Both the position numbers and the translations under genes were made by a program. Shown here piece by piece: positions 32,629-60,607 of a DNA stretch of 64,000 nucleotides (the stretch's first letter is position 1; each line of letters opens with the position of its first letter). The DNA comes from Opitutaceae bacterium (GTDB lineage: Bacteria; Verrucomicrobiota; Verrucomicrobiia; Opitutales; Opitutaceae), in contig JANQRT010000060.1 of the NCBI GenBank assembly GCA_028284385.1, positions 1 through 64,000 on the forward strand. The letters are read 5' to 3'. Below the pieces are notes generated by a model. That model was not told where the DNA came from and did no database searches. It saw nothing but the letters and a program-made list of their open reading frames with translations.

Positions 32629-34167
32629 CTAAAAATTAAGTAGAGTCATGCCTCCTTTTATCAATTTAGCCTTGTTGACGCTTTCTTCGTTGCCTACGAT
32701 TTTTACAGCTTGGGCGCCAGCAAGCTGACCTAGAAAGGTCCCAAGTGCTATTGGAAGATCGCATTTTGCCGCCAGAGAGCAAAGAGAGAAAAATGCGTCG
32801 CCTGCTCCAATTGTATCCACAACTTGGTTCTCAAGGCGAACACAGGTTGCAGTTTGTCCGTGGCTATCGACTCCGATCGCTTCTTTAGCTCCTCTGGTAA
32901 TCCAGGAGACCTTACTCCCAAGGCTCTCGCTTAACTCTCTTAGATCTTTCTCTGGCTCAAGGTTCTGCTTCGCTCGATCAAGCATGAGTTCGTGTTCATC
33001 GATCGAGAATGCGTTTACTCGTTGGTACTGCCTAGAAATTAGATTGTATCCGTGATTATAGCTATTTGTTTGACAGTTAAGTGAAAGGAATGGCGATTCC
33101 GCTTGTACAAAATCTCGCAGCTTTTGGGTCATTAATCCGTGCCCAAAATCCCCGACTACGACGAGATCGTAGTCGGCTATGCGTTTAGCAAGCTTTCCGA
33201 TGAGCCTATTTTCCAATGATGGATTAGCATATTGAGGATCTATGTAATTGATCGAAAAAATTTTTCCTAGCTCTTGACTTCTTTTAGATAGTTCCACGAA
33301 GCGTTGCTTGATGATTGTGGTGTAAGTTTCATCGTGCTCAAGAAAGAGTCCGGGTTTAATGTATGCTTTATCTAGTAGAGCTGGCAGCCATGGTTCCGTT
33401 CCTGCAATGCTCGCGAAATCAACATTTTCACTGAACTGACGTAAGTGGCGATAGATGGCCAAAGCTCCTCCAAGATGCGTGTCCTCTTTAATGAAACGTG
33501 TCGAAAGGACCCTGTTCTTCGATGCCAAGCCTTGAACTTGCACATAGGAATAGCGATCCAGTATGATGTCGCCAATAACCAGGATCTTGAGCTTGGCAAA
33601 GTCTTCTACCGTTTTTCTAAATGTTTCGGGCGGGAAATCCTCGGCCAGATCCCTGCAGAAAGAACGAGTTGCTTCTGGAAGATGCTCGAAGTGGTTGTTT
33701 AGCAGTTTGGAGGAGCTGAAAACAACCGATCCGACGTACTGAATTTCAGCTCCCAGTCGCTCCACTGCTGTGACGTCATTAGCCATGTTTCCCGTAGGAT
33801 CTGCATTTGAGTTCTCATATTCCTTGCCCTTGCAGTAAACGTCCGGACGAACTTGATTAATCGCTTCTACTGCGGCCGGGTATGGAACCGTTGCCACAAT
33901 GTCTACGCTTTCGAGTGCAGCTATGGATTTGCACCGCAGCTTTTCATTGAAATGCGGACGCCCCGGCCCCTTGTTCACATGGTCGTCGCCGGTTATCGTG
34001 ACGACTAGAACGTCCCCCAGAGCCTTCGCCTCTTCAAAGTGGACTATGTGTCCGGGATGGATAAGGTCGAATGTGCCGTGGCATTGAACTACCCGTTTTC
34101 CTTCTTTTCGATAAATTTCGAGGGCTTCTGGGATGTTTTCGAAAGCGATTACCTTTTGGATTGGCAT
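32629..34167 (-). CDS. HldE-like bifunctional protein with reversed domain order (cytidylyltransferase then kinase)
   Basis: This 512-residue protein has a nucleotidylyltransferase domain first (HGTFDLIHPGH at 30-40, the H-x-G-H signature) and a PfkB-type sugar kinase second, with GAGD at 454-457 and catalytic D457. E. coli HldE has the kinase first and the adenylyltransferase second. The kinase domain begins near residue 190 (ILVIGDIILDRYSYV). It may make an NDP-heptose or a related sugar, or use CTP and another substrate. A 143-base gap upstream may hold its promoter. Confidence 0.85.
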   Translation of the reverse strand: MPIQKVIAFENIPEALEIYRKEGKRVVQCHGTFDLIHPGHIVHFEEAKALGDVLVVTITGDDHVNKGPGRPHFNEKLRCKSIAALESVDIVATVPYPAAVEAINQVRPDVYCKGKEYENSNADPTGNMANDVTAVERLGAEIQYVGSVVFSSSKLLNNHFEHLPEATRSFCRDLAEDFPPETFRKTVEDFAKLKILVIGDIILDRYSYVQVQGLASKNRVLSTRFIKEDTHLGGALAIYRHLRQFSENVDFASIAGTEPWLPALLDKAYIKPGLFLEHDETYTTIIKQRFVELSKRSQELGKIFSINYIDPQYANPSLENRLIGKLAKRIADYDLVVVGDFGHGLMTQKLRDFVQAESPFLSLNCQTNSYNHGYNLISRQYQRVNAFSIDEHELMLDRAKQNLEPEKDLRELSESLGSKVSWITRGAKEAIGVDSHGQTATCVRLENQVVDTIGAGDAFFSLCSLAAKCDLPIALGTFLGQLAGAQAVKIVGNEESVNKAKLIKGGMTLLNF

Positions 34168-37193: not shown

Positions 37194-38156
37194 ATGGATA
37201 TTCAAAGGCTTTTTGACCGAGGGTTTGCCGAATGCGCTAAGGATGTGCAGCTGGAAGTTCCTCTACGCATCTACTGCTTTGGTTGCCTTTTGGCCTCCGA
37301 AAAGAAATGGTCTGAGGCCCTTAGCATTTATCGAGCGCTTGAAGCTGGAAATTGGCAACTGCATTTTGTCTACTATGCGATTGGAGCCTGTCTTGATCGA
37401 TTGAACCGTTTAGAGGAAGCTATAGAATATTATGATAAATCATATAGCGTTTCCATTAGAAATGCGTGTTTGATTAACAAATATAGAAATCTAAAATTGA
37501 TTTATGGACCGACTCCTCCAGATCATATTTCGACAAAGCTACGCGAAATTGAAACCCACGTTAGATCTGCTAAAAGGGAGCATCTAGTCGAGCAAGATAA
37601 TGATTCTTCCCATGGATATGCTAATTATTACGACAACGAAGACTACATTGATAGCTACTTAAAAGAGTTCGAATCCTATTTCGAAAAAGGCGATTCAATA
37701 TTGGATGTCGGATGCAATGTGGGTAGTAAGCTATACGGTTTCTATAGAAAAGGATGTAGAAATAACGGAGGTATAGAGATTAATGCCAATGCGGTTCAGG
37801 CTATGAAAAAAACATATCCCGATTTATATAGTGATTCTACTATCTATGTTGGAGATGCGGACGAAGAAATGAAAAAGATCCAACCACTATCTTATGATGT
37901 CGTGCATTTGCATTACGCCTCAGCGGGAATTTTCCATTCGGAAACGATAGCCAAATTCTTTCAAGTCGCTCGCAAGGCTGTATTTTTCTGTGACGGTGTA
38001 GAGCGAAATCCAGCTATTTTGCACGGTGGGTTGTTCTTCCATGATTTTGAAGGCATCGCTGAATCGACCGATTTTCAGTGTGCGGATAAGTTGGTCCGCA
38101 AGAAAGACAATCGCTGGAATCGTCAGGGAACACGTTGGATATATATTAAGAAATAA
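37194..38156 (+). CDS. TPR-like / SAM-dependent methyltransferase protein
   Basis: This 320-residue protein has an N-terminal helical, TPR-like half (YYAIGACLDRLNRLEEAIEYY) and a C-terminal class I methyltransferase with SILDVGCNVGSKLYGF and GIEINANAVQAMKK. Substrate is unknown. It is the only plus-strand gene inside the minus-strand locus, is unusually AT-rich (16 G+C of 60 in bases 37441-37500 by my count), and ends 8 bases before the convergent RmlD-like gene stop, so it may be a late insertion. Confidence 0.78.
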   Translation: MDIQRLFDRGFAECAKDVQLEVPLRIYCFGCLLASEKKWSEALSIYRALEAGNWQLHFVYYAIGACLDRLNRLEEAIEYYDKSYSVSIRNACLINKYRNLKLIYGPTPPDHISTKLREIETHVRSAKREHLVEQDNDSSHGYANYYDNEDYIDSYLKEFESYFEKGDSILDVGCNVGSKLYGFYRKGCRNNGGIEINANAVQAMKKTYPDLYSDSTIYVGDADEEMKKIQPLSYDVVHLHYASAGIFHSETIAKFFQVARKAVFFCDGVERNPAILHGGLFFHDFEGIAESTDFQCADKLVRKKDNRWNRQGTRWIYIKK

Positions 38157-39044: not shown

Positions 39045-40706
39045 TTAATCGACGGCTATCAGGTCTAAAGGTATGATGCGTAATCTTTTTATTGGAATGC
39101 CCATGGCGATAAGCTGCTTGTATATAGCTAGGGCATATTCACTCGCTATCCAAATTTCATCAAAAAGTTTCGATTCCAAGTCTCCGGGCGAAATGATGAG
39201 AACACCTTTATGCTTTTCTCCCCATTTATTCCTGTCGTTATCGCAGAATGCCAGTACGTTCTCTGATGTCACCAATCTTTCTTTACAACGATTTCCTCCT
39301 GTACTAGCTCCGAAGATAATTATATCTTTGGAGGATCTCTCTTCGAAAGACCACTTGTCATTGAATGATGGTTTCGCGTCTATTGGGAAACTAAGCTCTT
39401 GGCGAATTTTGTCTCGTATGTCGCCTTCAATTTCAGGATGAGCTTCAATCAGCTCTCTATAAAAAGACTGAAGGGCTGGCGCGTGCGTTACTTCCTTGCA
39501 ATTCTCTAATCTGTGCCTAGCGGTGCGAATATCATCGAATCTGGTCAGAGCTTCTTTTGCCTGATAGAAAGCCTCTTCTCCTCTACCAGTTCTCTCGAGA
39601 GTATCGATCCGATTAAACCAAGTATCTGGTGAATCATGATAGAATGCCACAGCAATGGCGGACCAGTCCCAGGCGTCGTGAATCGCATTAGAGGTGAGCG
39701 CCGTTTGTGATTTCCGTATCAGTGTATCTAAGGATGGCAAAGCTTTTCCCTCGATGCGGGTTGCTAGAAGTTCGAACGCCTTCTCGATGGTTTCTCTTCG
39801 ATCATCTTCCCAAATGGTGAGCTGAAGCTCATTATTGCATGGCCAATGCCGTCCAGGGTAATATTCGTAATGAGTTGTCCAGTGTTCAAGACTTGCAGGG
39901 TTTTTCCCCTCCGATATCGGCTTGAAGTATAAGTAACGGGTCTTTTTGTTTACGTAGCACAGAGATGCTGGCCCATTATTTATGGAAAGATTGATATAGC
40001 TTTCTTGGTAAAGAGCTGCTCGAATTTCTATATTGAAAGCCGCTTGTGGAAGATGGGAAAACGAGTTCAGTCTGCTGTCTTGGATTAGAGCCTTTTCAGT
40101 GTCGGGAATGAAAACCGGCTCATACTCTGGAGCTTTCGATTTCAAGGATTTCGCGAAAGCGATCCAGTCATCAAGCGAACTGTTACGTTCTACTGTATAG
40201 CTAGACTCGCGTAGGGTAATGGTGACAATTTTCTTTTCTGGAAAAAGCTTGGATTTCCATTCTCGGATAAACTGTAATGCTTGATCTGCTACAATGATAG
40301 ATCCTAATACTGGTTTTGGATCCCTCATCATATGGGCATTAGAATAGATTGTTGTTGGATTTTCTATAGAGTAGTCTGGGGGATACAAGACCGCATTCGA
40401 GTGCGCTAGAATTTGTTTTAGCTCCTCTCTAGAACCAAGAATTTGGATACTTGTTGCTGGACAAAACGCACTGAAAGCCGATTGAACTATTTGGCGAAAT
40501 CTCCATCGAGCGTTTTCGAGATCATATCTGGTGCTGTATCCTGTATCCGCTCGCGTCTTACTCCATGGCACGAAAATGATAGTTAGATTGGAGCATCTAG
40601 AACTTTCGAACACCGGCATCATGAGTCCGATGTAATGGATAGCGTCGTAAGCGCATGGCGTTATCTCCAAATCATAGATGGCTAGAAATGTGTCCTTGTT
40701 TGGCAT
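39045..40706 (-). CDS. Putative glycosyltransferase-like protein with C-terminal Rossmann-like module
   Basis: I do not recognise the main part of this 553-residue protein. Residues 1 to about 330 look like a GT-B-type or similar transferase (KIVTITLRESSYTVERNSS, SINNGPASLCYVNKKTRYL). A helical region with TPR character follows (about 340-450). The last 96 residues are the module (DIIIFGASTGGNRCKERL, AFCDNDRNKWGEK, VLIISPGDL) shared by four other locus proteins. Function is inferred from location only. Confidence 0.68.
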   Translation of the reverse strand: MPNKDTFLAIYDLEITPCAYDAIHYIGLMMPVFESSRCSNLTIIFVPWSKTRADTGYSTRYDLENARWRFRQIVQSAFSAFCPATSIQILGSREELKQILAHSNAVLYPPDYSIENPTTIYSNAHMMRDPKPVLGSIIVADQALQFIREWKSKLFPEKKIVTITLRESSYTVERNSSLDDWIAFAKSLKSKAPEYEPVFIPDTEKALIQDSRLNSFSHLPQAAFNIEIRAALYQESYINLSINNGPASLCYVNKKTRYLYFKPISEGKNPASLEHWTTHYEYYPGRHWPCNNELQLTIWEDDRRETIEKAFELLATRIEGKALPSLDTLIRKSQTALTSNAIHDAWDWSAIAVAFYHDSPDTWFNRIDTLERTGRGEEAFYQAKEALTRFDDIRTARHRLENCKEVTHAPALQSFYRELIEAHPEIEGDIRDKIRQELSFPIDAKPSFNDKWSFEERSSKDIIIFGASTGGNRCKERLVTSENVLAFCDNDRNKWGEKHKGVLIISPGDLESKLFDEIWIASEYALAIYKQLIAMGIPIKRLRIIPLDLIAVD

Positions 40707-40720
40707 CCTAGCTTTGGCCT

Positions 40721-42982
40721 TCAGTTTAGATGGCCCTCTAGCGCATCAAGGGCCTGCCAGAAGCGTTCTCCATGATTTTTATGTCCCTGCCAAATTTCAG
40801 GTATGAAAGAAGCTCCCGGAGCTGTTTCTTCAATTACTTCGCAGAGCCTATCGAAACGAATATCGCCGCTTCCAATTGGCAAACCTTCCTCGCCCGTGCC
40901 CGAGGCGTCAGCTATATGTAGATGCGCAGAAATGGGGCCAAGTATGCTGGCTGCTTCATATATGGAGTCTCCGCTATGATGACACCAGAGAGCCGTATGA
41001 GAGGTGTCGAAGCAGATCCTGTAACCATATTTATCGCAAAAGTTTCGTATGGATTCGGGTTCAAGAAAGAGATTGTGATACCGCTGTCCTCCGAAATGCC
41101 AGGGGAAGGGGGGCATGGTTTGAGGTATAATCTCGACATTGCGTGTATCGATTTTTTCGAGACCTGCTAATAGAAGATCGACTCGTTTTTGTCTCTCGTG
41201 GACAGACAGAGGCTCATGTTGGCTGAAACCGCCCACATTTGTTACAAGCGGGATCTTTTTCGTGGCTGGGAAGTAGTGACCGATTTCGGAAGCGATCTCT
41301 ACAACGCGTTGAAACTCTTTAATTGATTCTTCGCGGTACGCCTTGTTTGGAGAACACAAATCCAAAGTATGATCGTGTTGGAAGAGTTCGGGGGAGTGGA
41401 CTACGAGACCGTAGGAAAATTCAGTTGAGAACACAGTCTCAAGCTTTGTGGATAAATCGTGATAGCTTAGATGGAATTCGAGAAGCGTGGGATTTGAAAG
41501 TGAAGCGATAGAGAGAAAGTCGTGATAACGCACCGGGATTCCCCAAGGGCGAGAAAACGAGTATTTTCGCGCTTTCGAGCGTTTTTCATCCAAATCATTA
41601 TTGAAGAAAAAATCGCCCGGCTTCATTGCCCGCTGAGCGATTTTGCCAATAAGGCTCTTTTTCATATAAGGCGGTAGGCCGCGGCCGGGACTTTTAACGG
41701 CGATGTGCTTTTCGGTTATGCGATCTCCAGGATGTATTGAAATATTCGCTACAAGGCTCTTGGCAAGCGTCTCCCTATTTATCAGTTCTCCTTGGGTGGG
41801 AGTCCTTGGGCGAGACGAACCTGCGGCCTCCTCAACATGGCGAATCGCTTCAACCATTTTTTTAAACTCGTCTGGCAAAAGGCTGACCTTGTGGTCATTG
41901 CCCTCCCAATCCTTATTTAATGTGAAATGCTTTTCAATAATTTTCGCCCCCCTTGCAACAGCCGCAATTGCGATAGAGCTACCACGCTCGTGTCCTGAAT
42001 AACCAACTACCCCTTTGGATATCTCTCTTAAGCGATCCAAGTAGTTGAGATTGATATCCTTGTACGGGGCTGGATACGTCGCGTTGCAGTGCAGCAAAGC
42101 AAAGCGAGCTCCACATTCCTTCAGAACCGCTATCGCTTCCTCTATTTCAACTTCTGTCGACATTCCTGTGGAGACGAGAACCGGTTTGCCTGTTTCGGCG
42201 ATTGAGCGAAGCAGGTCGTGATTACTAAGATCAGCCGAGGCGATCTTGTATGCCGACATTCCAAACTGCTCCAATTCGCCAAGACTTTTTTGATCCCAGG
42301 GCGTGCAAAGAGCTAGGATTCCTTTTTCGCGACAGTAGTCGAAGGCTTCACGCATTTGGGCGGGAGAGAGCTGCGTTCTGGATAGTAGATCTATGGTGTA
42401 CTGAGCTCCTAGATCTTCGTCGTCTAGCGATATCTTACTATTGCCGACTGATCGGTAGAGTTCGGCCATGTCGCGCATTTGGAATTTGACGCAATTCGCG
42501 CCGGCATCGATGGCGGCATCAACCAAGTCCTTCGCAGCGGAAAGGCTGCCGTTGTGATTATTGCCAATCTCGGCAATAATGAATGCTGGGGCGCTTTCGC
42601 TTATTTCTCGTTTCTCGATGAACAGTTTTTCAGAGCGTTTGCGCGAACGGGCGATCGCGACAAGTCGTCCTAGATTATCAACTACAGGCATGAATACGAT
42701 TCGATCGCTAAGAAGACTTTCGATTTTCTTTACCGGCGTTCCAAGCAGTATGGATTGAAAATCGCCGTTTACGGCTTCTTTGGTGGGTCTGCTCAAGTCT
42801 AGGCCTTCATTATTGAGCGCCCATCTTCGAAAGTCGCCATCGGTCAGAATGCCATGCAGTACCCCATCTTCGGATACTGCGGCTACGAATCGCTCCTCGT
42901 TCTCGTCAATGCGTTTTAAAGCTACTGCTAGAGAGTCTTCAACATGGACGCATAAACGCTTAAGATCACGTTCGAATATCAT
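40721..42982 (-). CDS. CBS-NeuB-SAF-TIM-barrel fusion (ulosonic acid synthase)
   Basis: This 753-residue protein combines four parts. A CBS pair (about 1-115) has LTDGDFRRW, as seen in legionaminic-acid nucleotidyltransferases. A NeuB domain (about 130-385) has IIAEIGNNHNGS, VKFQ and the metal-ligand-type EKHFTLNK. A SAF domain spans about 405-465. A xylose-isomerase/AP-endonuclease-2-like TIM barrel (about 475-750) has possible metal ligands D659, H662, H689 and E729 in CFDTSHTALW, HLHIADASG and FIPEIWQGH. NeuB enzymes condense a sugar with PEP; the barrel may isomerise the substrate or product. It overlaps the upstream methyltransferase by ATGA. Confidence 0.88.
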   Translation of the reverse strand: MIFERDLKRLCVHVEDSLAVALKRIDENEERFVAAVSEDGVLHGILTDGDFRRWALNNEGLDLSRPTKEAVNGDFQSILLGTPVKKIESLLSDRIVFMPVVDNLGRLVAIARSRKRSEKLFIEKREISESAPAFIIAEIGNNHNGSLSAAKDLVDAAIDAGANCVKFQMRDMAELYRSVGNSKISLDDEDLGAQYTIDLLSRTQLSPAQMREAFDYCREKGILALCTPWDQKSLGELEQFGMSAYKIASADLSNHDLLRSIAETGKPVLVSTGMSTEVEIEEAIAVLKECGARFALLHCNATYPAPYKDINLNYLDRLREISKGVVGYSGHERGSSIAIAAVARGAKIIEKHFTLNKDWEGNDHKVSLLPDEFKKMVEAIRHVEEAAGSSRPRTPTQGELINRETLAKSLVANISIHPGDRITEKHIAVKSPGRGLPPYMKKSLIGKIAQRAMKPGDFFFNNDLDEKRSKARKYSFSRPWGIPVRYHDFLSIASLSNPTLLEFHLSYHDLSTKLETVFSTEFSYGLVVHSPELFQHDHTLDLCSPNKAYREESIKEFQRVVEIASEIGHYFPATKKIPLVTNVGGFSQHEPLSVHERQKRVDLLLAGLEKIDTRNVEIIPQTMPPFPWHFGGQRYHNLFLEPESIRNFCDKYGYRICFDTSHTALWCHHSGDSIYEAASILGPISAHLHIADASGTGEEGLPIGSGDIRFDRLCEVIEETAPGASFIPEIWQGHKNHGERFWQALDALEGHLN

Positions 42983-48311: not shown

Positions 48312-48719
48312 TTAGAGTCCCGCCCTTCTGAAAATCGCTAGTAATCGTAATAGAAAATGAAGCGACATTATCCCCATTAACGCGAAAGCTGTTTTCGCTT
48401 GTCGTTGCTTGATCGGTTTTCCAGAGAGAAATTCTCTCGATATCAATATGATTTTTGAAGCGGGTATGCCAATGCTCAATAACTGATCGCAAATTTCATC
48501 GGAATAGTGGCTGGCTATCAGGATCTGGTCGAATTCCACATCTGGGATACGATCAGGGTCGAGAACTCTATACCCAAAGAAGGCAGCTGCTTGCTTTGAT
48601 CGATCATTGTCTGCGAAGGCTATGACTTCCTCGCCTGGCTGAAGAGCTTGGAAGACTTTTATTCCTCCTTTGCTGCATCCGAAAATGATCACCCTGCTCG
48701 ATTCGCAATCTTCTCTCAT
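48312..48719 (-). CDS. Stand-alone Rossmann-like module protein
   Basis: This 135-residue protein consists of the module alone (VIIFGCSKGGIKVFQAL, AFADNDRSKQAAAFFG, YRVLDPDRI, ILIAS) plus a C-terminal hydrophobic helix (about 108-135). It overlaps the upstream GT-B-like gene by ATGA. Its function is unknown. The module also appears fused to four other proteins in this locus, suggesting a shared nucleotide- or partner-binding role. Confidence 0.75.
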   Translation of the reverse strand: MREDCESSRVIIFGCSKGGIKVFQALQPGEEVIAFADNDRSKQAAAFFGYRVLDPDRIPDVEFDQILIASHYSDEICDQLLSIGIPASKIILISREFLSGKPIKQRQAKTAFALMGIMSLHFLLRLLAIFRRAGL

Positions 48720-50242
48720 AGTAGTTCCGATTCGATGTCCAGCTGTCTATGCAACGCGTTTATCGTTTCTACTAAGGGCCTGCTAGCTGTAGCGTCCTCA
48801 TTTAGTTTTCCCTTATCCAAGCAGTGACGAATCAGCTCGATACAACCGTCTAGATCTTCGCAAAATTTCAAGTTCCCAGCGGCGATCTCATTTTGGAAGA
48901 TGATGGCGCCATGCTTTAGCATCGTTACCGAGGGTACGCCCATTTCACGCGCTTCGATGATAACCGAGGAAAATCCCGTGAAGTGAGCATCTGCGTGTTG
49001 TAGAATCGTGTAAAGCGGCCATTTGCTGGGGTATTCGATCTCGAAATTTGCGATGCCAAGAGTTTTCGCGCTCCTCTCGAGCTCCTCGTTTCGAATTTCA
49101 TACTCAAGTGGATGCATCCGAATGAGCCAATACCATTCTTTAGGAGCTCTAGCAATCGTCGCTAGAGTGAGATCCACCGATTTCGAGACGTACTCAGGAG
49201 TGGCTAGTATGACAGGTCTACCCTTGAGTCTCGCGAAGCGTTTAGTCGCCATTGAATCTAGCTTTTTTACGAATGCTACCCTCTTTTCTCGCCACATTTT
49301 CATGAGAGCATTTCCCCCCTCAAAGCTCTGATGGTAGTTTGTCTTCACAGCCCATTCATCGATCGTCCTTTTCTCGAACGCGCTCCAGCTCCAAAAAACC
49401 TTGGGAAGGCTTTTGTATCCGTTTGATGGGCACCGATTCCATCGGCCATATGCGTGATGCGTTGGATCTTGTCTGCCGTGGGGAAGTTCGACTGTTGGTA
49501 TCCCCAGTCTGCGAGCGGCTGTGCAAACCGACCAGCCATAAGCATTATAGCAAAGCACTATATAGATCAATTTCGGTTTAATGAACTGCAGTATTCTCGT
49601 CCAGATTTCCGTCATGCGAAAAACTAGATTCGCCATTCGCAGGCTGCGATGCTCGTTCATGTAGATGCCAATGTCTGATTCTCGCCTTACGTACTCAAAG
49701 AGCTCGCGCAATTCCTTGACTGGAGTCATCGATTGTCTTGAGGGAGCTGATACAGCAAAAATTTTTGATAGCGAATTAATGACATATTCGTTTACGTAAA
49801 TACTGCTGCGATAGCGAGGGAATCGTTCGAATGAGCGAAGAGGCTCTATATGCTCTGTTGAAAGGCCAGAGCTTTGGTAAGCGTCGCGAAAAGGATCGCA
49901 CAGGCGGTGGTAGTGCCGACCCAAGATATCCATACGAGTATTGTTGTCGGCCACAAAAAGAACTTCGGCTTTTCGTTTAGGAAAGACCCCGCTTTGCTGG
50001 TCATCGAACAAAGCCTTTAAATAACCTGCGAAGTTGTTGGTTTCCGCCTTCCAGCGGCTAGAGAGCCAGGTAGGCGAAGCTTTTTCAATGCGCTTCGACT
50101 CGATGACATCGCCCTCCGTCAAGTCAAAGCCCATGTGTGTTCGTATTATAGGCCAAAGCTCTATATTTAAGCTCGTCCACTGATCTACTGGAAAGCTTTC
50201 CTCCAAGTGATTAATGAACTCAATGGCTTCCAATGGATTCAT
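48716..50242 (-). CDS. Putative GT-B-type surface polysaccharide transferase
   Basis: I do not recognise this 508-residue protein with confidence. The C-terminal half resembles the capsule-biosynthesis/CDP-glycerol-transferase fold (ELPHGRQDPTHHAYG, then WLIRMHPLEYE, then HFTGFSSVIIEAREMGVPS), which points to a GT-B transferase. The N-terminal 150 residues look helical. It is the second gene of block A, 35 bases after the DegT aminotransferase. Confidence 0.68.
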   Translation of the reverse strand: MNPLEAIEFINHLEESFPVDQWTSLNIELWPIIRTHMGFDLTEGDVIESKRIEKASPTWLSSRWKAETNNFAGYLKALFDDQQSGVFPKRKAEVLFVADNNTRMDILGRHYHRLCDPFRDAYQSSGLSTEHIEPLRSFERFPRYRSSIYVNEYVINSLSKIFAVSAPSRQSMTPVKELRELFEYVRRESDIGIYMNEHRSLRMANLVFRMTEIWTRILQFIKPKLIYIVLCYNAYGWSVCTAARRLGIPTVELPHGRQDPTHHAYGRWNRCPSNGYKSLPKVFWSWSAFEKRTIDEWAVKTNYHQSFEGGNALMKMWREKRVAFVKKLDSMATKRFARLKGRPVILATPEYVSKSVDLTLATIARAPKEWYWLIRMHPLEYEIRNEELERSAKTLGIANFEIEYPSKWPLYTILQHADAHFTGFSSVIIEAREMGVPSVTMLKHGAIIFQNEIAAGNLKFCEDLDGCIELIRHCLDKGKLNEDATASRPLVETINALHRQLDIESELL

Positions 50243-50277: not shown

Positions 50278-51387
50278 CTATAAAATCGCTTGAGCCAAGC
50301 TGGCTGCCACGTAGCGGATTTGCTCGACTGTTATATCGGGGAAAATGGGTAGAGAAAGCGTTCTCGTCATTTGTTCGAATGCTACGGGAAAGTCATTTTG
50401 CTGGTATCCATGAACCTGATATGCCTTTGAAAAAGGAAGAGCTAGTGGATAGTGGATTCCAGAAGAAACGCCTGCCTTGTTTAAGACTTCTCTCACATGG
50501 TCGCGTTTGTCGACTTCGATTGCGAATACGTGGTAGACATGAGTTCGGTCTGATGGCGTTTCCTGAAATGATAGGCCGATTTTGTGTAAGGCTTTCCGAT
50601 ATTCTGAGCCTGCCTCCTGGCGTTTTCGCGTCCACTCTTCGAGGTGTTTCAACTTTACTGAGAGAAAGGCGGCTTGGATCCCATCCATTCGACTATTTCG
50701 TCCCTCGAATTCGTGATCAAATCGTCCACTACGGCCATGGTCCGTAAAGCGCTTCGTGCGAGTTGCGAGATCATCATCGTTGGTGATAATGCAGCCTGCG
50801 TCCCCAAGACATCCTAAATTCTTGCCTGGAAAGAAACTGAAGGTGGCGAGGTCTCCGAACGATCCAATCGGTTGGTCTTTATAAAAGGCTCCATGCGCTT
50901 GAGCCGCGTCTTCTATTATTTTCAAATCATGTTCGGAAGCGATTGCTACGATTTCATCCATATCGGCGGGCAGGCCGAAGAGGTGTACGGGAATAATGGC
51001 TTTAGTTCGAGAATTGATTACCGCTCTAATTTTTGTTGAATCAATATTTTTAGTTAAGGGGTCGACGTCGACAAAGATTGGCCTAGCTCCCACGTGACTG
51101 ACTGCCTCTGCAGTCGAGATCCAAGTGCGAGCGGGAACTATGACTTCGTCTCCGGAGCCGATTCTCAAGACTCGCAAGGCGATTTCGATGGCGTCCGTTC
51201 CATTGGCGCAGGCAATGCAGTGCCGCGCTTGGCAAAATCGCGCAAAATCCTTTTCGAAGGCGGCTACGAATGGGTTTCCTTCTTTGCCGATAAATTGACC
51301 CGAATCAAACACGTCCTCAAAGGCTTCGATCAGAGGCTGTTTGAGCTGTTCGTGCTGCTGTTGGAGATCGTTGAAGGGGACCTTCAC
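50278..51387 (-). CDS. DegT/DnrJ/EryC1/StrS aminotransferase, WbpE/WlbC-like
   Basis: This 369-residue sugar aminotransferase has the PLP lysine K189 in FSFFPGKNLGCLGDAG and an early substrate loop IACANGTDAIEIALRVL. In UDP-diacetamido-uronic acid pathways this enzyme aminates the C3 ketone made by WlbA/WbpB. The next gene on the divergent strand encodes that oxidoreductase fused to the acetyltransferase. The start is GTG at 51387, heading minus-strand block A. Confidence 0.92.
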   Translation of the reverse strand: MKVPFNDLQQQHEQLKQPLIEAFEDVFDSGQFIGKEGNPFVAAFEKDFARFCQARHCIACANGTDAIEIALRVLRIGSGDEVIVPARTWISTAEAVSHVGARPIFVDVDPLTKNIDSTKIRAVINSRTKAIIPVHLFGLPADMDEIVAIASEHDLKIIEDAAQAHGAFYKDQPIGSFGDLATFSFFPGKNLGCLGDAGCIITNDDDLATRTKRFTDHGRSGRFDHEFEGRNSRMDGIQAAFLSVKLKHLEEWTRKRQEAGSEYRKALHKIGLSFQETPSDRTHVYHVFAIEVDKRDHVREVLNKAGVSSGIHYPLALPFSKAYQVHGYQQNDFPVAFEQMTRTLSLPIFPDITVEQIRYVAASLAQAIL

Positions 51388-51525: not shown

Positions 51526-53136
51526 ATGCCTCGATCCTCTTCCTCCAATCAGCCTAAAGTCGCTTTGATCGGGTACGGCTACTGGGGAAGGAATCTGGCA
51601 AGGAATCTTCATCATTTAGGGGCTTTGGCAATCGTGTGCGACTGCGATGCGTCTGCGCTTGAGACTGCTCGGGCGGACTTGGATGGGGTTAAATTCTCTG
51701 ACGATTTCGAGTCGACTTTGAAGAACGCAAACGTGAAAGGCGTTGTTATTGCCACGCCCGCCGCAACACATTTCGAACTTGGAATGAAAGCTTTGGCGGC
51801 AGAAAAAGACGTGTTGGTAGAAAAGCCGCTCGCGCTTGATCTGGCTGAGGCGAGAAAAATGGTTGATTTGGCAGAGACTCAAAAGCGTATTTTGATGTGT
51901 GGCCACCTCCTCCACTACCACCCTGCTGTTCGTCGTATGAAGCAGATCATTGCGTCTGGGGATTTGGGGGAAATTAGATATGTAGCGGCTACTCGACTTA
52001 ATTTCGGAAAAATTCGCTGGGAGGAAAGTGTTCTTTGGTCGTTTGCTCCTCACGACTTGTCGCTTCTTCTTTCTATCTTGGGCGAACGACCTTCGAGCGT
52101 TTCAAGTGTCGGTGGCGCCTTTCTGGACGATCGCGTGGCCGATGTTACCACTACGTTTCTTTCCTTTCCAAATGGAGCTAAGGCTCACGTCTTCATTTCT
52201 TGGCTACACCCTTTCAAAGAACAGAAATTCGTAGTTGTAGGGGAGAGGAAGACGATAGTCTTCGACGACACCGAACTGCAGAATAAACTCATGTTGTTCG
52301 ATAGCGATATTCATTGGGAAGGCGGCAGACCGATTCTGTCGAAATCCGATGGGACTCCAGTCAAGTGTGCCGATGAAGAGCCGCTTGCCAATCAGTGTAT
52401 CCAATTCTTACGATCGATTTTAACTCGCGAACCGCCTATCACCAATGGTCGGGAAGCTTTATCAGTTGTGGCTGTTCTGAGAGACTGCCAACGTTCCTTG
52501 GAAAACAGTATGGATTTTGAAAGGAAATTGAAACCCGAATGCGACGATATTAAAATCCACCAATCGGCGGAGGTCGAGGACGGCGTTGAGATTGGAGAAG
52601 GGACGCAAGTGTGGCGTTTTTCGCATATCCGAGGCCCTGCATGTATTGGCAGAAATTGCCGAATTGGCCAAAATGTGACGATTGGGCCCAACGCCTCGGT
52701 AGGTGACGGTGTCAAGATACAGAACAATGTTTCTGTCTTCGAAGGGGTTATTCTAGAAGAGGGTGTATTTTGCGGTCCTTCCGTGGTCTTCACAAATGTG
52801 CGACACCCGCGGTCTCGTTTTCCGAAAACCGATTGCTTCGAGAAGACGATTGTACGTCGTCACGCCACGCTGGGAGCTAATTGCGTGATTGTCTGTGGTA
52901 TTGAAATAGGCGAATACTCCTTTGTAGGAGCTGGAGCGGTCGTAGTTAAGTCTGTTAGGCCCTATGCTCTCATGTTAGGCAATCCAGCAAAGCAAGCAGG
53001 CTGGGTAGGTCGTCATGGAGTTCGATTGGAAAAACGGGAGTCGGACAACGTGCTGGTCTGTCCGGAAAGCGGTTGGGCCTATCAGGTCAATGGAACGGAC
53101 CAAAGCCTTGAACTTTTAGAGGGAGAGGAAGTTTAG
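51526..53136 (+). CDS. Fused WlbA/WbpB oxidoreductase and WlbB/WbpD acetyltransferase
   Basis: This 536-residue fusion has a Gfo/Idh/MocA oxidoreductase ([12 protein letters not shown] at 16-27, VEKPLALDL at 98-106, H176 in [12 protein letters not shown]) followed from about residue 342 by a left-handed beta-helix acetyltransferase ([62 protein letters not shown]). The two usually separate enzymes oxidise C3 of UDP-GlcNAcA and acetylate the new amine. A short extra tail has a VCPESGWAY motif of unknown role. It sits beside the DegT gene and 9 bases before the epimerase gene. Confidence 0.92.
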
Positions 53137-53145
53137 AACGCGTCC

Positions 53146-56100
53146 ATGAAGGCAGTCACCATCGTCGGCGCTCGACCTCAATTTGTGAAAGTCGCTCTGT
53201 TGAGGAAGACGCTGCTGGCCTCAGGTGTACATGACATTCTCGTTCATACGGGGCAACATCACGATGTAGAGATGTCGGACGTCTTTTTTAAGGAGCTGGA
53301 AATCGGTCCTCCAGATGTCAACCTGGGAATCTTCTCGGGAAAAGATGGAGCTTGTATCCATCAAATGATTACTCCCATTGAAGAGGTCCTCGCGGCAGAA
53401 AGGCCATATGTAGTTATCGTTTTTGGCGACACTGCATCGACTTTGGCTGGGGCCTTGGTTGCAAACCGCCTTAATATTCCTGTAGCTCATGTCGAGGCGG
53501 GTTTACGCAGTTTCAACTCTAATATGCCTGAAGAAGTGTACCGAGCAAACACTGACAGGATTGCTCGTTGGCTTTTTGCCCCTAGTCAAGTCGCGGTCGA
53601 TAATCTACGCGCCGAGGGGATTGATGCGGGTGTTGAAGTTGTAGGCGACGTCATGCGTGACGCCGTTGATATATTCAGTCCGATAGCTGAGAGAAAAAGC
53701 AAGGTGCTACAAGAGCTTGATCTTGTGGAAAACGGATATGCAGTTGCCACTTTCCATCGCCAAGATAATGTTGATAATGTTGAGATCCTCTCGCAAATCT
53801 TGGCTGGGCTTAAAGAAATCGGAGACAAAGTAGTCTTTCCAGTTCATCCAAGAACGAAAAGGCGACTTAGCGAGTTCGGTTTAGGACTGCCAGCCAATGT
53901 TGTTGAATCTAAGCCATTCGGCTATCTTGATACGCTCAAACTCGTCATGTCGGCTAAAGCGGTCGTTACGGATTCGGGAGGTTTGCAGAAAGAGGCCTAC
54001 TGGCTTGGGTCGCCTTGCCTGACTATTCGTTCCGAAACGGAGTGGGTCGAAACCGTTGAATCGGGATGGAATATCTTGGCGGAAGCAGATCCAAGAAGCA
54101 TGGTGAATGCGTATCAGCGTTTGGATCCGCCGCGAGAGCGTCCGAATCTTTATGGAGATGGACAGGCATGTCGGCGAATCGTGGATACTCTCATTAGTAG
54201 ATCGAAAAAAGAGAGTGCTCCCAGGAAGCCTAAGTCTGTCCAGGGAGTAGAATCAGACTGCTGGGCATTTGATTTGGCGGCCTTCCGTAGTCAAAGTAGA
54301 CTTGCTTTCCCACGATGGGTCGGATGGACCGAAGCTTTATTGAATTCTTGGCCTGGACGATTTTTCCTTAGCCGCTCTATCCCTTGCGACGAGCGGAAAA
54401 CGCTTCTAGCTCGGTGCCAGTCGGTTGCTGATCGGTCTGATTTACGCGATGGAAAGATCCTAGATGAGGAGGGCTTTTCTTCTAGTAATATCCAAGGGAT
54501 GCTTTCATTAGCGGAGGTGGACCACGCTACGCTTTCCAGGCTTCCCAAGTGTCAATTGGCGATAGCTTTTGGAGGTGATAACGATGCTGACCTGCATAAG
54601 CAATGGACTGTCGCTCAAAAACTTGGTGTCGACTTGCTTATTTCAGAGCTGTTACCAGACGAATTGCCTATCAAGTTCGAACCCCAGGAATTGGATAGCT
54701 TTTGCCGGCAGTTTTTCTTTTTGGGACCTGCATTGCATGTTCCGGAAATTGAGGCGAACGAATCCCGAAATATTAATGAATTTGGTATAGTTTTCTATTG
54801 TCCTCGAGAGGACGCATTCGACAAATCACTGCTAGCGACCTTGGCTGTGGAGGACGACATTAGTAGTTATATAATGGTTACCGAGCGTTCTAGTTTGCTA
54901 AAGGCTCTAAAACAGGCCAATATTTGCCTCTCTTTCGCCTCTCTTCCGCAACAAGTTCAAGAAGCTGAGCTCTTTTGCAAGGCTTACGATATAAGGTTCG
55001 TCGATTTGGGGGCGAGCATGGCTTCGCCTTTTCGTTCGATTTTTTACAGTATGGCGTCTCCCCAGTTTGAATCTTTCGAGGTTCCTACGAGGGAGAGGTC
55101 CGAGATCAAGCGCTTGCGCGAGGCGATTGACTGGTGCAAAAGATTAAGAAAGCGATGCCGCGTCATTTCGTCCGAAGAAACCATACGATGGTGGGATCAA
55201 TTTTCAAATAGTAGGATCAGCGAACTTCTCGAACGGCTTGGACGCCCCGAAGATAGCAAACTCGCGAAAGAGCGAGATAATTTAGCAATAGAGGCGTTTT
55301 ATTGTCCCGATAATTTGGAGACGCTTTGGGAATATCCTTCAGATGGGGACACAACAAGTGTTGGTTTGAATAATTGGGTGGGCAGGCCCCTTTCTGGACG
55401 CGTTGCGGCAGGATTGTGCGACAACCTTCACCGGCTTCCATTTGAATTGGTCGACGTATCCAGAACTATGAGATTCTGCTCCCGGGCAACCTTGTTTTGG
55501 AAAATAGACAAAGCAGACAAGGAAGCTTTGGTTTTCTGGTTGAGAAAAGCTCTGCTGCAGAGAACGATCAAAGCCGAAGATGCTGAGGCTGTAATAGATC
55601 GCTTCGATCGTTTGAAGTCCGGTATTGTTAGACAAATCAGCCTCCTTGCGAGCTCGCTGGCTAAGATCCTTGCCGAGATCGGCGAGCAGCTGGAGGGGAG
55701 TCGGCGGCGGGAATGGTTTGAACTGGCCGTCTTCCTTTACGATCGAATGCTCGACGAGGATTGCCCTTGGCAGGGCGACAGGTATCGATTGCTGGCCATG
55801 AACGATCGTTCCCTTGAGGCTCGGGCACTCATGGACTATAATCACGGTCGCGGGATTGTTTCAGAGTACGATAGGGCGGTGCTTGCTATGGGTATTCTTG
55901 GCCCTATTCAAACGCGACTGATCATTCCCGCATTTAGGGCATCGAAACAGGTTGATCTGGATCTGGCTAAAGAGCTTCTCATCCGCGAACTGAAACCTGG
56001 AGTAAATTCCCAAAATGCAATCGCCTTGTTGGTTTATATAGGGGGGCTTCAAGGAGACGTGGAATTGCTGCTTCGTGTCCTCCGTGAGAGCGAAGGTATC

Positions 56101-56598
56101 GATGAATTTCAACGTTCACTGAGAGAAGATCAGGTCCGAGCATATTATTGGCTGGGAGATGAGTGCAGAAATCAAGACGATCTTCGCTTACCACACTCTT
56201 TTACAATGGAACCGCCGGTCAATAGTTTTGGGGTCACTCTTTTAGCCAGAGTAGCATGCCGAGAAATACGTGAGGTTAGAAGCTTGCTTGAGCAATCTAC
56301 TGTATCGGGAATCCTAGCAGAGCTTTCTACATTAAATCCGCGAGGGTTGAGTTTTTTTCATTCGTTTTGCTCCGTGGCTCTGTCCCGATTGGGGTATTCT
56401 ATTGAAGCAATGCGTCTTCTTATTTTGGGTACGCGTTTTTATCCTCAAAATAAGGTGTTCGAATCGAAATTCGGATTATCTGCCGATCTGCGAAGCGCAT
56501 TTCACGATCGCTCTCATTCGGAGCTAGTCAGGAGGTTCATGGACATTGTTGAAAGAGAGACAGAAAAAGCGTTTTCTTTGGGTAAATTCTTTAAATGA
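53146..56598 (+). CDS. WecB/WbpI-type UDP-HexNAc 2-epimerase with 790-residue unknown C-terminal extension
   Basis: Residues 1 to about 355 are a non-hydrolysing UDP-GlcNAc 2-epimerase: GARPQFVKVALLRKTL, HTGQHHDVEMSDVFF, EAGLRSFNSNMPEEVYR, and DSGGLQKEAYWLGSP. The next 790 residues match nothing I recognise. A middle part (about 380-660) looks alpha/beta, with repeated hydrophobic strands such as LAIAFGGDND. The last 350 residues look mainly helical, with leucine-rich repeats of helices. Usual family length is about 360-380, so the extension is real and the frame is continuous. It overlaps the next GT2 by ATGA. Confidence 0.88.
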   Translation: MKAVTIVGARPQFVKVALLRKTLLASGVHDILVHTGQHHDVEMSDVFFKELEIGPPDVNLGIFSGKDGACIHQMITPIEEVLAAERPYVVIVFGDTASTLAGALVANRLNIPVAHVEAGLRSFNSNMPEEVYRANTDRIARWLFAPSQVAVDNLRAEGIDAGVEVVGDVMRDAVDIFSPIAERKSKVLQELDLVENGYAVATFHRQDNVDNVEILSQILAGLKEIGDKVVFPVHPRTKRRLSEFGLGLPANVVESKPFGYLDTLKLVMSAKAVVTDSGGLQKEAYWLGSPCLTIRSETEWVETVESGWNILAEADPRSMVNAYQRLDPPRERPNLYGDGQACRRIVDTLISRSKKESAPRKPKSVQGVESDCWAFDLAAFRSQSRLAFPRWVGWTEALLNSWPGRFFLSRSIPCDERKTLLARCQSVADRSDLRDGKILDEEGFSSSNIQGMLSLAEVDHATLSRLPKCQLAIAFGGDNDADLHKQWTVAQKLGVDLLISELLPDELPIKFEPQELDSFCRQFFFLGPALHVPEIEANESRNINEFGIVFYCPREDAFDKSLLATLAVEDDISSYIMVTERSSLLKALKQANICLSFASLPQQVQEAELFCKAYDIRFVDLGASMASPFRSIFYSMASPQFESFEVPTRERSEIKRLREAIDWCKRLRKRCRVISSEETIRWWDQFSNSRISELLERLGRPEDSKLAKERDNLAIEAFYCPDNLETLWEYPSDGDTTSVGLNNWVGRPLSGRVAAGLCDNLHRLPFELVDVSRTMRFCSRATLFWKIDKADKEALVFWLRKALLQRTIKAEDAEAVIDRFDRLKSGIVRQISLLASSLAKILAEIGEQLEGSRRREWFELAVFLYDRMLDEDCPWQGDRYRLLAMNDRSLEARALMDYNHGRGIVSEYDRAVLAMGILGPIQTRLIIPAFRASKQVDLDLAKELLIRELKPGVNSQNAIALLVYIGGLQGDVELLLRVLRESEGIDEFQRSLREDQVRAYYWLGDECRNQDDLRLPHSFTMEPPVNSFGVTLLARVACREIREVRSLLEQSTVSGILAELSTLNPRGLSFFHSFCSVALSRLGYSIEAMRLLILGTRFYPQNKVFESKFGLSADLRSAFHDRSHSELVRRFMDIVERETEKAFSLGKFFK

Positions 56599-57374
56599 GG
56601 AAAATTTACATACTGCTCCCAGCTTATAACGAATCAAGCTCGCTGCCACGGCTTTTACCGAAGATTGCGGATGCCATGTCTGATCAGGATTGGAATTATG
56701 AAATCATCGCCTGCAATGATGGCAGTTCGGATGATACGCGATCTATCTTTCTGCAATTCAAAAAGACTATGCCAATCCGACTTATTGACCACTGGATAAA
56801 TCGAGGCTTAGGCGAAACGGTGAGGGATCTTTTTGAAGCAGTTTCAAAAGAATGTGATGATGATGATGTCATTGTTCGTTTCGATTGCGACGATACCCAT
56901 GAACCCTCGGTGATTCGGAAGCTTGTTGCTCGTCTTGATGAAGGTTTCGATGTCGTGACGGCATCGCGGTTTGCTAAAGGAGGAGGGCAGATGGGTGTCA
57001 GCGCCTACCGATCATTCGTTAGCTTGATGGCGAACTGGATCATGAAACTTGTTTTTCCAATAAAGGGGATTCGCGAATATTCCTGCGCCTATCGGGCTTA
57101 TCGTGGCTCTTTGGTTAAGCGCGCGATTCGCGTTTTCGGAAATGACTTCATTCAGCTTAAAGGCATGGGCTTTACGGGAAGCGTAGAAAAGCTGGTCAAG
57201 TTGAAGATGCTTGGAGCTAGATTTGCCGAGGTTGGCTTCGTTTTGCGCTACGATCAAAAGCAAAGCGATAGCAAGATGGTAACGAGCGTGACAGCATTGG
57301 GGTATTTTGTTTTGCTAATGCTTTACCACTGGCCATGGGGTGGTTGGCGACGTAGCAAATTCTTCGATACTTAA
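56595..57374 (+). CDS. Family 2 glycosyltransferase (DPM1-like)
   Basis: This 259-residue GT-A enzyme has ILLPAYNESSSLPRLLPKI, the DDGSSDDT motif, and the divalent-metal region DCDDTHEPSVI. A hydrophobic stretch near residues 225-245 may associate with the membrane. It resembles polyprenyl-phosphate-sugar transferases and could transfer a first sugar to a lipid carrier. It overlaps the epimerase fusion gene by ATGA. Confidence 0.88.
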   Translation: MRKIYILLPAYNESSSLPRLLPKIADAMSDQDWNYEIIACNDGSSDDTRSIFLQFKKTMPIRLIDHWINRGLGETVRDLFEAVSKECDDDDVIVRFDCDDTHEPSVIRKLVARLDEGFDVVTASRFAKGGGQMGVSAYRSFVSLMANWIMKLVFPIKGIREYSCAYRAYRGSLVKRAIRVFGNDFIQLKGMGFTGSVEKLVKLKMLGARFAEVGFVLRYDQKQSDSKMVTSVTALGYFVLLMLYHWPWGGWRRSKFFDT

Positions 57375-57381
57375 TTGTAGG

Positions 57382-59268
57382 ATGTGTGGTATTTGCGGAT
57401 TTTTCGGGGAATCGCGTTCTTCTGCAGAACGAAACGAAATTGCAGATCGAATGTCTGTAAAGATAGCTCATAGAGGTCCAGATGATCTAGGCTCTTTTTC
57501 TGATAGCAATGCAAGCCTGCGGCATCGTAGATTAGCGATTATCGATATTGCAGGAGGAAGCCAGCCAATGCTCTCGGATGATCGGCGGTACGTATTGGTT
57601 TTCAATGGCGAAATCTATAATTTCATCGAGTTGCGTCAGGAGCTGAAAGCTATAGGTCAAACCTTTCGGACGAAATCCGACACGGAGGTTCTGCTTCAAG
57701 CGCTGATCCGGTGGGGTAAGGATTCATTGCCCAAGCTAAATGGAATGTTTGCGTTTTGTTTTCTGGACACGAAGACCGGGGATTGGATTCTCGCCCGTGA
57801 TGCAATTGGCATCAAGCCGTTGTACTGGACCCAAGTAGGGGAGGAGTTTGTTTTCGCTTCGGAGATCAAGGCATTGCTCGAGCATCCTAGTCTTGCTTCT
57901 CGATTGGATGGCCAAGCTTTGCAGGAGTATTTGGCCTTCCAGTTCTGCCTTGGAGAGCGAACGCTATTCGAGGGCGTTCGGAAGTTGTTGCCTGGAACTT
58001 GGATGAGTGGAAGGAATGGGAAACGTCTAGAGATCGGAACGTATTGGGAGCCTAACTACAATATAGATGAGACGAAAACTGAAGAAGAGTTTCTTGATGA
58101 TCTGCTAGGGCTTCTCGAAGATGCGGCAAATTTGCAGCTACGCAGTGATGTTCCTCTTGGGTGCTATCTTTCAGGTGGTCTGGATTCAAGCGCCGTTTCG
58201 CTTCTTGTCAGTAAAAGGCTAGCTAAAAGGATGCCGCTTTTTCATGGCCGTTTCGTTGAGCCATTAGGGTATGATGAATCTCGATACGCGAAGGTTCTTG
58301 CCGATTCTATCGGAGGAGAGTTGCATATTGCCGAGCCATCCGCAGCTGACTTCGTCAATTCCATGCCTGAAATAATCCATTGCATGGATGAGCCAGTAGC
58401 GGGACCCGGTGTTTTCCCGCAGTACATGGTCAGCAAAGAAGCAAGTAAGCAAGTGAAGGTAGTATTGGGAGGACAAGGTGGTGACGAGATATTCGCGGGA
58501 TACGCTCGCTATCTGGTCGCTTATCTTGAGCAGGCGCTCAAGGGAGCGATTTTCAGAACCCAAGAAGAAGGCAACCATATTGTAACGCTTAGTTCCATTG
58601 TCCCCAACTTAACGGTGTTGCAGCAGTATCATCCGCTGATGTCTCGTTTCATGTCGGAGGAGCTTTTTGGGCCGATGGACCGACGATACTTCAGGCTTAT
58701 CGATCGCATGGATGGTAACAACGATATATTGTCTAGCGAAATGAAAAGCAGTTTCGATGGAGAGACTCTTTTTTCGAACTTTCAAAGTCTCTTCAATCAT
58801 GTTCAGACAAAATCTTATATCAACAAGATGCTTCACTTTGACATGCGTACCATGTTGCCATCGCTGCTTCAGATCGAGGATCGGGTCAGCATGGCTTGGG
58901 GATTGGAATCTCGTGTTCCGCTGTTGGATACAAGGATTGCGGATTTAGTAAATAGAATGCCACCCAAACTGAAGTTCAAGGGTGGCAGGACTAAGCACAT
59001 TTTTCGAAAAGCTCTTGATGGATTGGTCCCTGAGGCCATTTTCTTGCGCGAAGACAAGATGGGATTTCCTGTACCTTTGCATGACTGGATAAGCTGCTCA
59101 CCCGTTCGAGATTTTGTTGGCGATACGCTTTTAAAGCGAGCTTCCTTGCAAAGGGGAATTTACAAGCCTCAAGCTTTACGTAGTTTAATTGATGATAAGC
59201 GCCCATTCGGGCGAGCGCTTTGGGGAGCTCTATCGCTAGAGCTTTGGCATGAACAATTCATCGACTAG
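57382..59268 (+). CDS. asnB: Asparagine synthase (glutamine-hydrolysing)-like amidotransferase
   Basis: From the ATG at 57382 the protein has 628 residues. The start codon is fixed by the N-terminal nucleophile Cys2 in MCGICGFFGES, a class II glutaminase. GEIYNFIELR and the ATP-binding loop SGGLDSSAVSLL (PP-loop) are present. Within a polysaccharide operon, such proteins often amidate uronic acids or peptides instead of making asparagine. The next gene overlaps its last 20 bases. Confidence 0.88.
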   Translation: MCGICGFFGESRSSAERNEIADRMSVKIAHRGPDDLGSFSDSNASLRHRRLAIIDIAGGSQPMLSDDRRYVLVFNGEIYNFIELRQELKAIGQTFRTKSDTEVLLQALIRWGKDSLPKLNGMFAFCFLDTKTGDWILARDAIGIKPLYWTQVGEEFVFASEIKALLEHPSLASRLDGQALQEYLAFQFCLGERTLFEGVRKLLPGTWMSGRNGKRLEIGTYWEPNYNIDETKTEEEFLDDLLGLLEDAANLQLRSDVPLGCYLSGGLDSSAVSLLVSKRLAKRMPLFHGRFVEPLGYDESRYAKVLADSIGGELHIAEPSAADFVNSMPEIIHCMDEPVAGPGVFPQYMVSKEASKQVKVVLGGQGGDEIFAGYARYLVAYLEQALKGAIFRTQEEGNHIVTLSSIVPNLTVLQQYHPLMSRFMSEELFGPMDRRYFRLIDRMDGNNDILSSEMKSSFDGETLFSNFQSLFNHVQTKSYINKMLHFDMRTMLPSLLQIEDRVSMAWGLESRVPLLDTRIADLVNRMPPKLKFKGGRTKHIFRKALDGLVPEAIFLREDKMGFPVPLHDWISCSPVRDFVGDTLLKRASLQRGIYKPQALRSLIDDKRPFGRALWGALSLELWHEQFID

Positions 59269-60607
59269 GCAGAGCTTTCTTCTTAACGCCAAAATCAGAC
59301 ATGATTGGGCACTTGAAAATCTGTCATGCTATTTTGGTGACAAATTAGATATCATAGATGAACTCCCCTTGAAGCGGCTGGAGTCGCTCGATGCCGGACC
59401 GTTACCGCCGAGATTATGCACAGTCGCTCTACCGGATTGGGCGAACCATTGTGGAGTGGAGGGAGTTATTCTGGTTCCGGAATCCCTATCAAGAGATTCT
59501 TGGGATTCGGTCCCTTGGTTGGACGTCGCTGCGTGGTACATGAGTTCGGTTGCAGAGCGTGAATTTGAAGCCGAGAGAGGTCCTATCTTTTCAAATTCTT
59601 TTCGACTGAAAGGCTGGGATCCTCGTCTTTGGAAGTACGCCTGGGCTAATCGTATCGCTCTTTTTTTACGAGAATGGGCAGGCCGTAAACGCGGAGAGGT
59701 CGTCGACGTTCTGTTTGGAGGGAAACCCCAAGCGCGATTGATACTCTCTCACGACGTTGATGCTATTTCTAAAACACTACCGATTCGGGGAAAGCAGACA
59801 TTTCGTATCTTGGCGAAAGCGCTCCGACGTCTAGGAAGACTCGATATTCCAGGCGCCCTAAATGCTTGTTTTAGTGCTTTGTCTTTTTTCTTCTCTTCTC
59901 CATCATATGATCGATTTGCCGAAATCATAAAAATGGAGAAATCGCTGAAAGCGAAGAGCTTGTTTTTCGTATATCCTAATGATGAAGATCGGCGTGGATT
60001 GAAAAAGTGGATACTCGATCCCTCATACCGTCTCAATTCTCCTGTATTTTCGTTCCTTGCCGAGAGGGTAAAAGATCATGATGCTTTTGTCGGCAGTCAT
60101 CCGTCTATCTTCCACTGGCGCGATACTCACTCCATCAGTCGTGGACGTGATCGATTAGAAAAGCGCTTTGAACGCAGTATTAGTTTCTGTCGTCAGCATT
60201 GGCTCAAATTCTCATTTGCCGACACCTGGCACTGTCAACGTGAAGCCGGCTTTCATATCGACCTTACTTTAGGCTTCAATGATCGGCCTGGTTTCCGCAA
60301 TGGATCGGCTCTTTTATTGAAGCCAGATCCATGTGAGCAATTCCGGACAGCTCCTATGGTTTTGATGGACTCGCATTTGTATGATTGTCGTGATTATGAT
60401 CAAACGGAGCGAATCAGTGAGATGCGCCACTGGCTTCAAGAGCTTAACCAAGTGGGTGGAATCGCTTCAGTCATTTGGCATCAGCGCGTTTTCGCTCCCG
60501 ACTACGGCTGGAGAGATTTATACGTTAAGATGCTCGAACTGGCCAATGACTTGGGAATTGAATTTGCGGATCCTGAGCAAATTGCTTTGCTACGAAGAGA
60601 GCATTGA
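59249..60607 (+). CDS. Polysaccharide-deacetylase-like protein
   Basis: This 452-residue protein has the deacetylase motif L-S-H168-D169-V-D171 near residue 168, then a second His in FVGSHPSIF and later DTWHCQREAGF and GFNDRPGFRN. The 160-residue N-terminal region is not recognised. Position next to the asparagine synthase suggests it acts on the same sugar. No signal peptide is visible, so it probably works in the cytoplasm or on a lipid-linked intermediate. It overlaps the preceding gene. Confidence 0.78.
   Translation: MNNSSTRQSFLLNAKIRHDWALENLSCYFGDKLDIIDELPLKRLESLDAGPLPPRLCTVALPDWANHCGVEGVILVPESLSRDSWDSVPWLDVAAWYMSSVAEREFEAERGPIFSNSFRLKGWDPRLWKYAWANRIALFLREWAGRKRGEVVDVLFGGKPQARLILSHDVDAISKTLPIRGKQTFRILAKALRRLGRLDIPGALNACFSALSFFFSSPSYDRFAEIIKMEKSLKAKSLFFVYPNDEDRRGLKKWILDPSYRLNSPVFSFLAERVKDHDAFVGSHPSIFHWRDTHSISRGRDRLEKRFERSISFCRQHWLKFSFADTWHCQREAGFHIDLTLGFNDRPGFRNGSALLLKPDPCEQFRTAPMVLMDSHLYDCRDYDQTERISEMRHWLQELNQVGGIASVIWHQRVFAPDYGWRDLYVKMLELANDLGIEFADPEQIALLRREH

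Follow-up and report, generated by a model that had tools for sequence, protein, structure and literature searches.

A putative single-gene fusion of a WbpI/WlbD-like UDP-sugar 2-epimerase with a 790-residue C-terminal extension in an Opitutaceae bacterium

The window analyzed here comprises positions 1 to 64,000 of contig JANQRT010000060.1 (assembly GCA_028284385.1) from an Opitutaceae bacterium. An open reading frame on its forward strand (53146-56598) begins with ATG and encodes 1150 residues in one frame with zero internal stops, in agreement with the continuous frame reported in the initial annotation. Its TGA stop codon (56596-56598) shares bases with the ATG of the next gene at position 56595, forming an ATGA overlap. 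The predicted product includes a complete non-hydrolysing 2-epimerase domain (residues 1-349; 53146-54192, +), a charged Ser/Lys/Pro-rich linker (SRSKKESAPRKPKSVQGVES; 54193-54258, +) that contains a run of six A at 54205-54210, and a long C-terminal extension, hereafter the tail, whose residues 361-1150 correspond exactly to 54226-56595. The tail can be described in two parts, neither of which matched a family. Part 1 (residues 361-655; 54226-55110, +) shows a possible strand/helix alternation, and part 2 (residues 656-1150; 55111-56595, +) is predicted to be almost all helix, both on low-confidence models.

The upstream gene (51526-53136, +) encodes a Gfo/Idh/MocA 3-dehydrogenase (WlbA/WbpB-like) joined to a left-handed beta-helix hexapeptide acetyltransferase (WlbB/WbpD-like), which belongs to the same pathway. 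Seven other fetched loci with WbpI-like epimerases carry this WlbA-WlbB type fusion as well, whereas near relatives in the family have the dehydrogenase and the acetyltransferase as separate genes. A divergent neighbour (50278-51387, -) encodes a DegT-type aminotransferase, a candidate for the WbpE-type step. The preceding pathway steps are therefore represented next to the epimerase by these two genes, and nucleotide-sugar dehydrogenases are located elsewhere in the genome. The downstream gene of the ATGA overlap (56595-57374, +) encodes a family 2 glycosyltransferase of the polyprenyl-phosphate sugar type and is followed by a glutamine-dependent amidotransferase of the asparagine synthase type (57340-59268, +) and by a VimE-like deacetylase of 452 residues (59249-60607, +). 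The last protein had no Pfam match; its residues 162-431 were matched below the curated cut-off (E 4.6e-15) by NF053580, the VimE deacetylase model, whose name refers to UDP-2,3-diacetamido-2,3-dideoxyglucuronate. It is possible that this protein carries out a substrate-diverting or editing step.

Several other products encoded in the window were recorded. The 753-aa product of 40721-42982 (-) is an unusual multi-domain sialic-acid-type synthase with a CBS-like start, NeuB, SAF and a xylose-isomerase-type TIM barrel. The sugar cluster also includes a 553-aa protein (39045-40706, -) with no Pfam or NCBIfam match. A 508-aa protein (48716-50242, -) without a Pfam match was weakly matched by a BFO_1060 family glycosyltransferase model (E 3.6e-5), and a 320-aa protein (37194-38156, +) combines tetratricopeptide repeats and a methyltransferase domain. 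In the 512-aa product of 32629-34167 (-), a cytidylyltransferase-like match at the N-terminus precedes a PfkB-like kinase match at the C-terminus, and HldE has the reverse domain order.

The epimerase domain was recognized by Epimerase_2 (PF02350; residues 28-349, E 7e-93, 311.6 bits against a cut-off of 30.6) and by TIGR00236 (residues 1-349, 275.8 bits against a cut-off of 210). The domain is complete; its end had previously been placed near residue 355, but both models end at about residue 349. The closest solved structures were 8sxv/8sxy (E 5e-101), followed by 4neq (4e-77) and E. coli WecB 1f6d (5e-36). Residues R10, Q12, K15, Q37, H38, D95, E117, E129, H204, R205, H234, S277, E283, R295, E299, and W300 are all kept. 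Among them, K15, D95, E117, E129, and H204 are the counterparts of Lys15, Asp95, Glu117, Glu131, and His213 of the E. coli enzyme in the 8sxv/8sxy alignment. The conserved residues binding substrate or allosteric UDP-GlcNAc were described for the T. thermophilus structure (PMC10622841), and all of these conserved residues are present here. Moreover, Trp300, within a TEWVE motif, occupies the place of the substrate-reading Trp307 (T. thermophilus numbering). At the pocket positions Ala18 and Tyr96 (T. thermophilus numbering), the present protein has Val16 and Phe93, and Tyr132 takes the place of an Asn that is near-invariant in relatives.

The domain was initially assigned to the WecB type. Membership of the WecB superfamily holds, as the catalytic residues are shared with the WecB/MnaA UDP-GlcNAc 2-epimerase of E. 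coli and TIGR00236 scores over its cut-off, but WecB is the more distant relative and differs in the substrate-reading motif, which is TEW in the present protein. On the other hand, the whole domain (residues 1-349) aligns with the UDP-GlcNAc3NAcA 2-epimerases (WbpI of P. aeruginosa; 8sxv/8sxy of T. thermophilus) and resembles them in ligand-binding and allosteric residues, in Trp300, and in its pathway neighbours. The genome encodes a second epimerase, which has a TERP motif and stands alone, so the two enzymes probably have separate jobs. Because of its structural relatives, the kept residues including Trp300, the pathway neighbours, and the TERP motif of the second copy, the enzyme is better named a WbpI/WlbD-type epimerase, with UDP-GlcNAc3NAcA as its probable substrate. 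The solved enzymes of this kind have about 370 residues and are tail-less, whereas the present protein carries 790 residues more.

The codon statistics support the tail being coding over its full length. Along the extension, frame 0 had the highest codon score of the six frames or was level with the mirror frame. The score of the whole extension reached z = 9.9 relative to base shuffles, and when it was divided into four sub-segments, each was 3.2 to 5.6 SD above the shuffles. Furthermore, the chance of 790 codons without a stop at the same composition is about 4e-19. The tail thus looks like a genuine protein, and the initial annotation, which had argued the same from codon use and the ATGA overlap, is borne out in this respect. 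An antisense open frame of 168 aa (55339-55845, -) has a codon score near that of the sense frame and probably mirrors the codon bias of the sense strand.

The tail (residues 361-1150) had no credible match in Pfam, NCBIfam, PHROGs, PADLOC-DB, or the PDB sequences, which agrees with its earlier description as a 790-residue extension of no recognised family. By searching its own genome and 95 relatives, 384 class, 252 family (including one of the same genus), and 387 phylum genomes, sets which overlap, no relative beyond chance was found. Nothing similar occurred in viral contigs, plasmids, or phages, and exact peptide patterns, which are sensitive to close relatives only, did not detect the tail in the genome contigs searched. 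A search for proteins consisting of the extension alone had been suggested, and none was found in the class, family, and phylum genomes or in the genome contigs. The fetched loci contain 137 other epimerase frames, some of them one gene fetched twice, and every one ends at most 60 residues past the domain; the longer ones owe their length to the N-terminal side. In the genome searches, the other epimerase open frames were at most 532 aa long versus 1153 here. A literature search for epimerase fusions found none. The tail has thus been found so far in this genome only.

Several candidates for the tail were rejected. A degenerate second copy of the epimerase was considered, and hhalign of the epimerase to the tail gave no match. 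A likeness to KpsC/KpsS-like capsule synthases was seen by eye, but Pfam was silent even at E 10 on segments; the KpsC/KpsS family is almost missing from related genomes. Matches to the FRB domain (PF08771, E 0.03-0.19) and to squalene epoxidase (E 0.19) were below cut-off and implausible, and were taken as chance. In related genomes, weak similarities (E 0.002-1) were short and scattered, and the best of them sits in an apparent outer-membrane efflux lipoprotein. In profile comparison (hhalign) with 52 families assembled from proteins of the fetched loci, part 1 scored at the level of reversed and shuffled controls. The score of 34 between part 2 and one family was spurious, since the matched frame is antisense to an apparent DUF1592-type cytochrome gene.

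Structure prediction gave no defined fold. With a single sequence as input, AlphaFold2 reached pLDDT 37 for the full tail and 38 for a 238-residue piece (residues 415-652), and Foldseek with this piece returned no match. Because of these low values, the models support no fold claim. Both place predicted strands only in the first third and helices thereafter, so the strand-then-helix order agrees with the one alpha/beta and one helical part proposed in the initial annotation, but they provide no evidence of a fold for either part.

We hypothesize that the gene encodes a two-part protein, in which the epimerase (residues 1-349) would be connected by the flexible charged linker to an orphan module (residues 361-1150). 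The epimerase would invert C2 of UDP-GlcNAc3NAcA to form UDP-ManNAc3NAcA, with UDP-GlcNAc as the likely allosteric activator, judging from the family and the kept residues. Residues of about 361-655 may represent a sugar transferase, or a part resembling one, that has diverged strongly, and residues 656-1150 may form a helical part docking to partners or the membrane, so that the rare sugar would be handed on at its site of synthesis. Such a tail, fused to its own sugar supplier, is our leading guess for its function, though a weak and tentative one. In L113, a locus from Verrucomicrobia of the same class whose upstream gene is likewise fused, the end of the epimerase gene is overlapped by a gene for a family 4 GT-B glycosyltransferase. 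For this reason it is a reasonable guess that here the next enzyme is attached covalently and carries a helical docking part. The strand/helix order predicted with low confidence in residues of about 458-630 would suit Rossmann-like halves and is loosely similar to that of GT-B enzymes, which share with the tail the position after the epimerase. However, the tail has no detectable sequence or profile similarity to the GT-B enzymes, no Pfam or NCBIfam glycosyltransferase family model matched it, and its sequence matched neither a glycosyltransferase nor the epimerase domain of the same protein. A separate glycosyltransferase gene (56595-57374) also already follows. Among other loci that carry the dehydrogenase-acetyltransferase fusion, the next gene is not constant and encodes an amidotransferase, a flippase, Wzz, or a polymerase, so that gene position is a poor guide to the function of the tail. 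The bolder proposal would see in the tail a novel protein family, whose fold or transferase activity would be new and which would pass the rare sugar directly from the UDP-ManNAc3NAcA-making epimerase to the next step; this is harder to credit, and we consider it rather unlikely.

A non-catalytic scaffold, that is a mainly helical platform on which UDP-ManNAc3NAcA pathway enzymes gather, or a tether of the epimerase to the membrane or export machinery, is about equally likely as the transferase reading and is held just as tentatively. Both functions had been suggested for the extension in the initial annotation. The scaffold is consistent with the last 500 residues being mostly helical by low-confidence prediction, with a weak 50-residue match to a helical-looking protein in related genomes, and with the finding that no recognisable catalytic motif was seen in the tail. 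Residues 709-742 of the extension resemble a tetratricopeptide unit by eye, but the best position-specific score was reached by 35% of shuffles, and Pfam repeat models did not match the tail segments even at E 10. The tail could also be fast-evolving or newly arisen and joined recently, with no set role, to an epimerase that still works, which would fit the finding of a tail homologue in none of the 252 family genomes or elsewhere in the searches. However, the 790 stop-free codons with normal codon use and the tight packing of the operon before and after the gene are suggestive of selection, and this origin appears quite improbable.

These readings all take the frame as one gene. Alternatively, the gain or loss of one base in the A6 run during assembly could have merged two genes, a hidden frameshift of the kind raised in the initial annotation; the first gene would encode an epimerase of 362-367 aa and the second an orphan protein. 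The position of the run coincides with the linker, and the epimerase would have 362 residues with an additional A and 367 with one removed, both normal lengths. With 58 runs of at least six in the 64 kb, the chance of one falling within a linker of 30-40 bases is about 3%, and every other epimerase frame measured stands alone. On the other hand, any wrong frame would be expected to close early, with off-frame stops every 20 codons or so, and the linker has a composition ordinary for an interdomain stretch. A coding signal is already present in the 91 codons at the start of the tail (z = 3.2, codon score versus base shuffles). Moreover, the added A would leave the tail with no start codon upstream of the run, the deleted A would provide only overlapping ATGs with no clear ribosome-binding site, and the in-frame starts downstream likewise have no clear ribosome-binding site. 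We therefore consider such a join improbable; if true, the locus would contain a normal epimerase gene and, next to it, an orphan gene. We prefer the reading as one fused protein, with a probability of roughly 85%.

This architecture is new on a known enzyme and is so far known from a single genome. A real fusion would mean that a sugar-nucleotide 2-epimerase is attached covalently to a large partner, an arrangement found in none of the relatives examined. It would offer a direct handle on whether rare sugar nucleotides are channelled in bacterial surface-glycan pathways, and might establish the tail as a new family.
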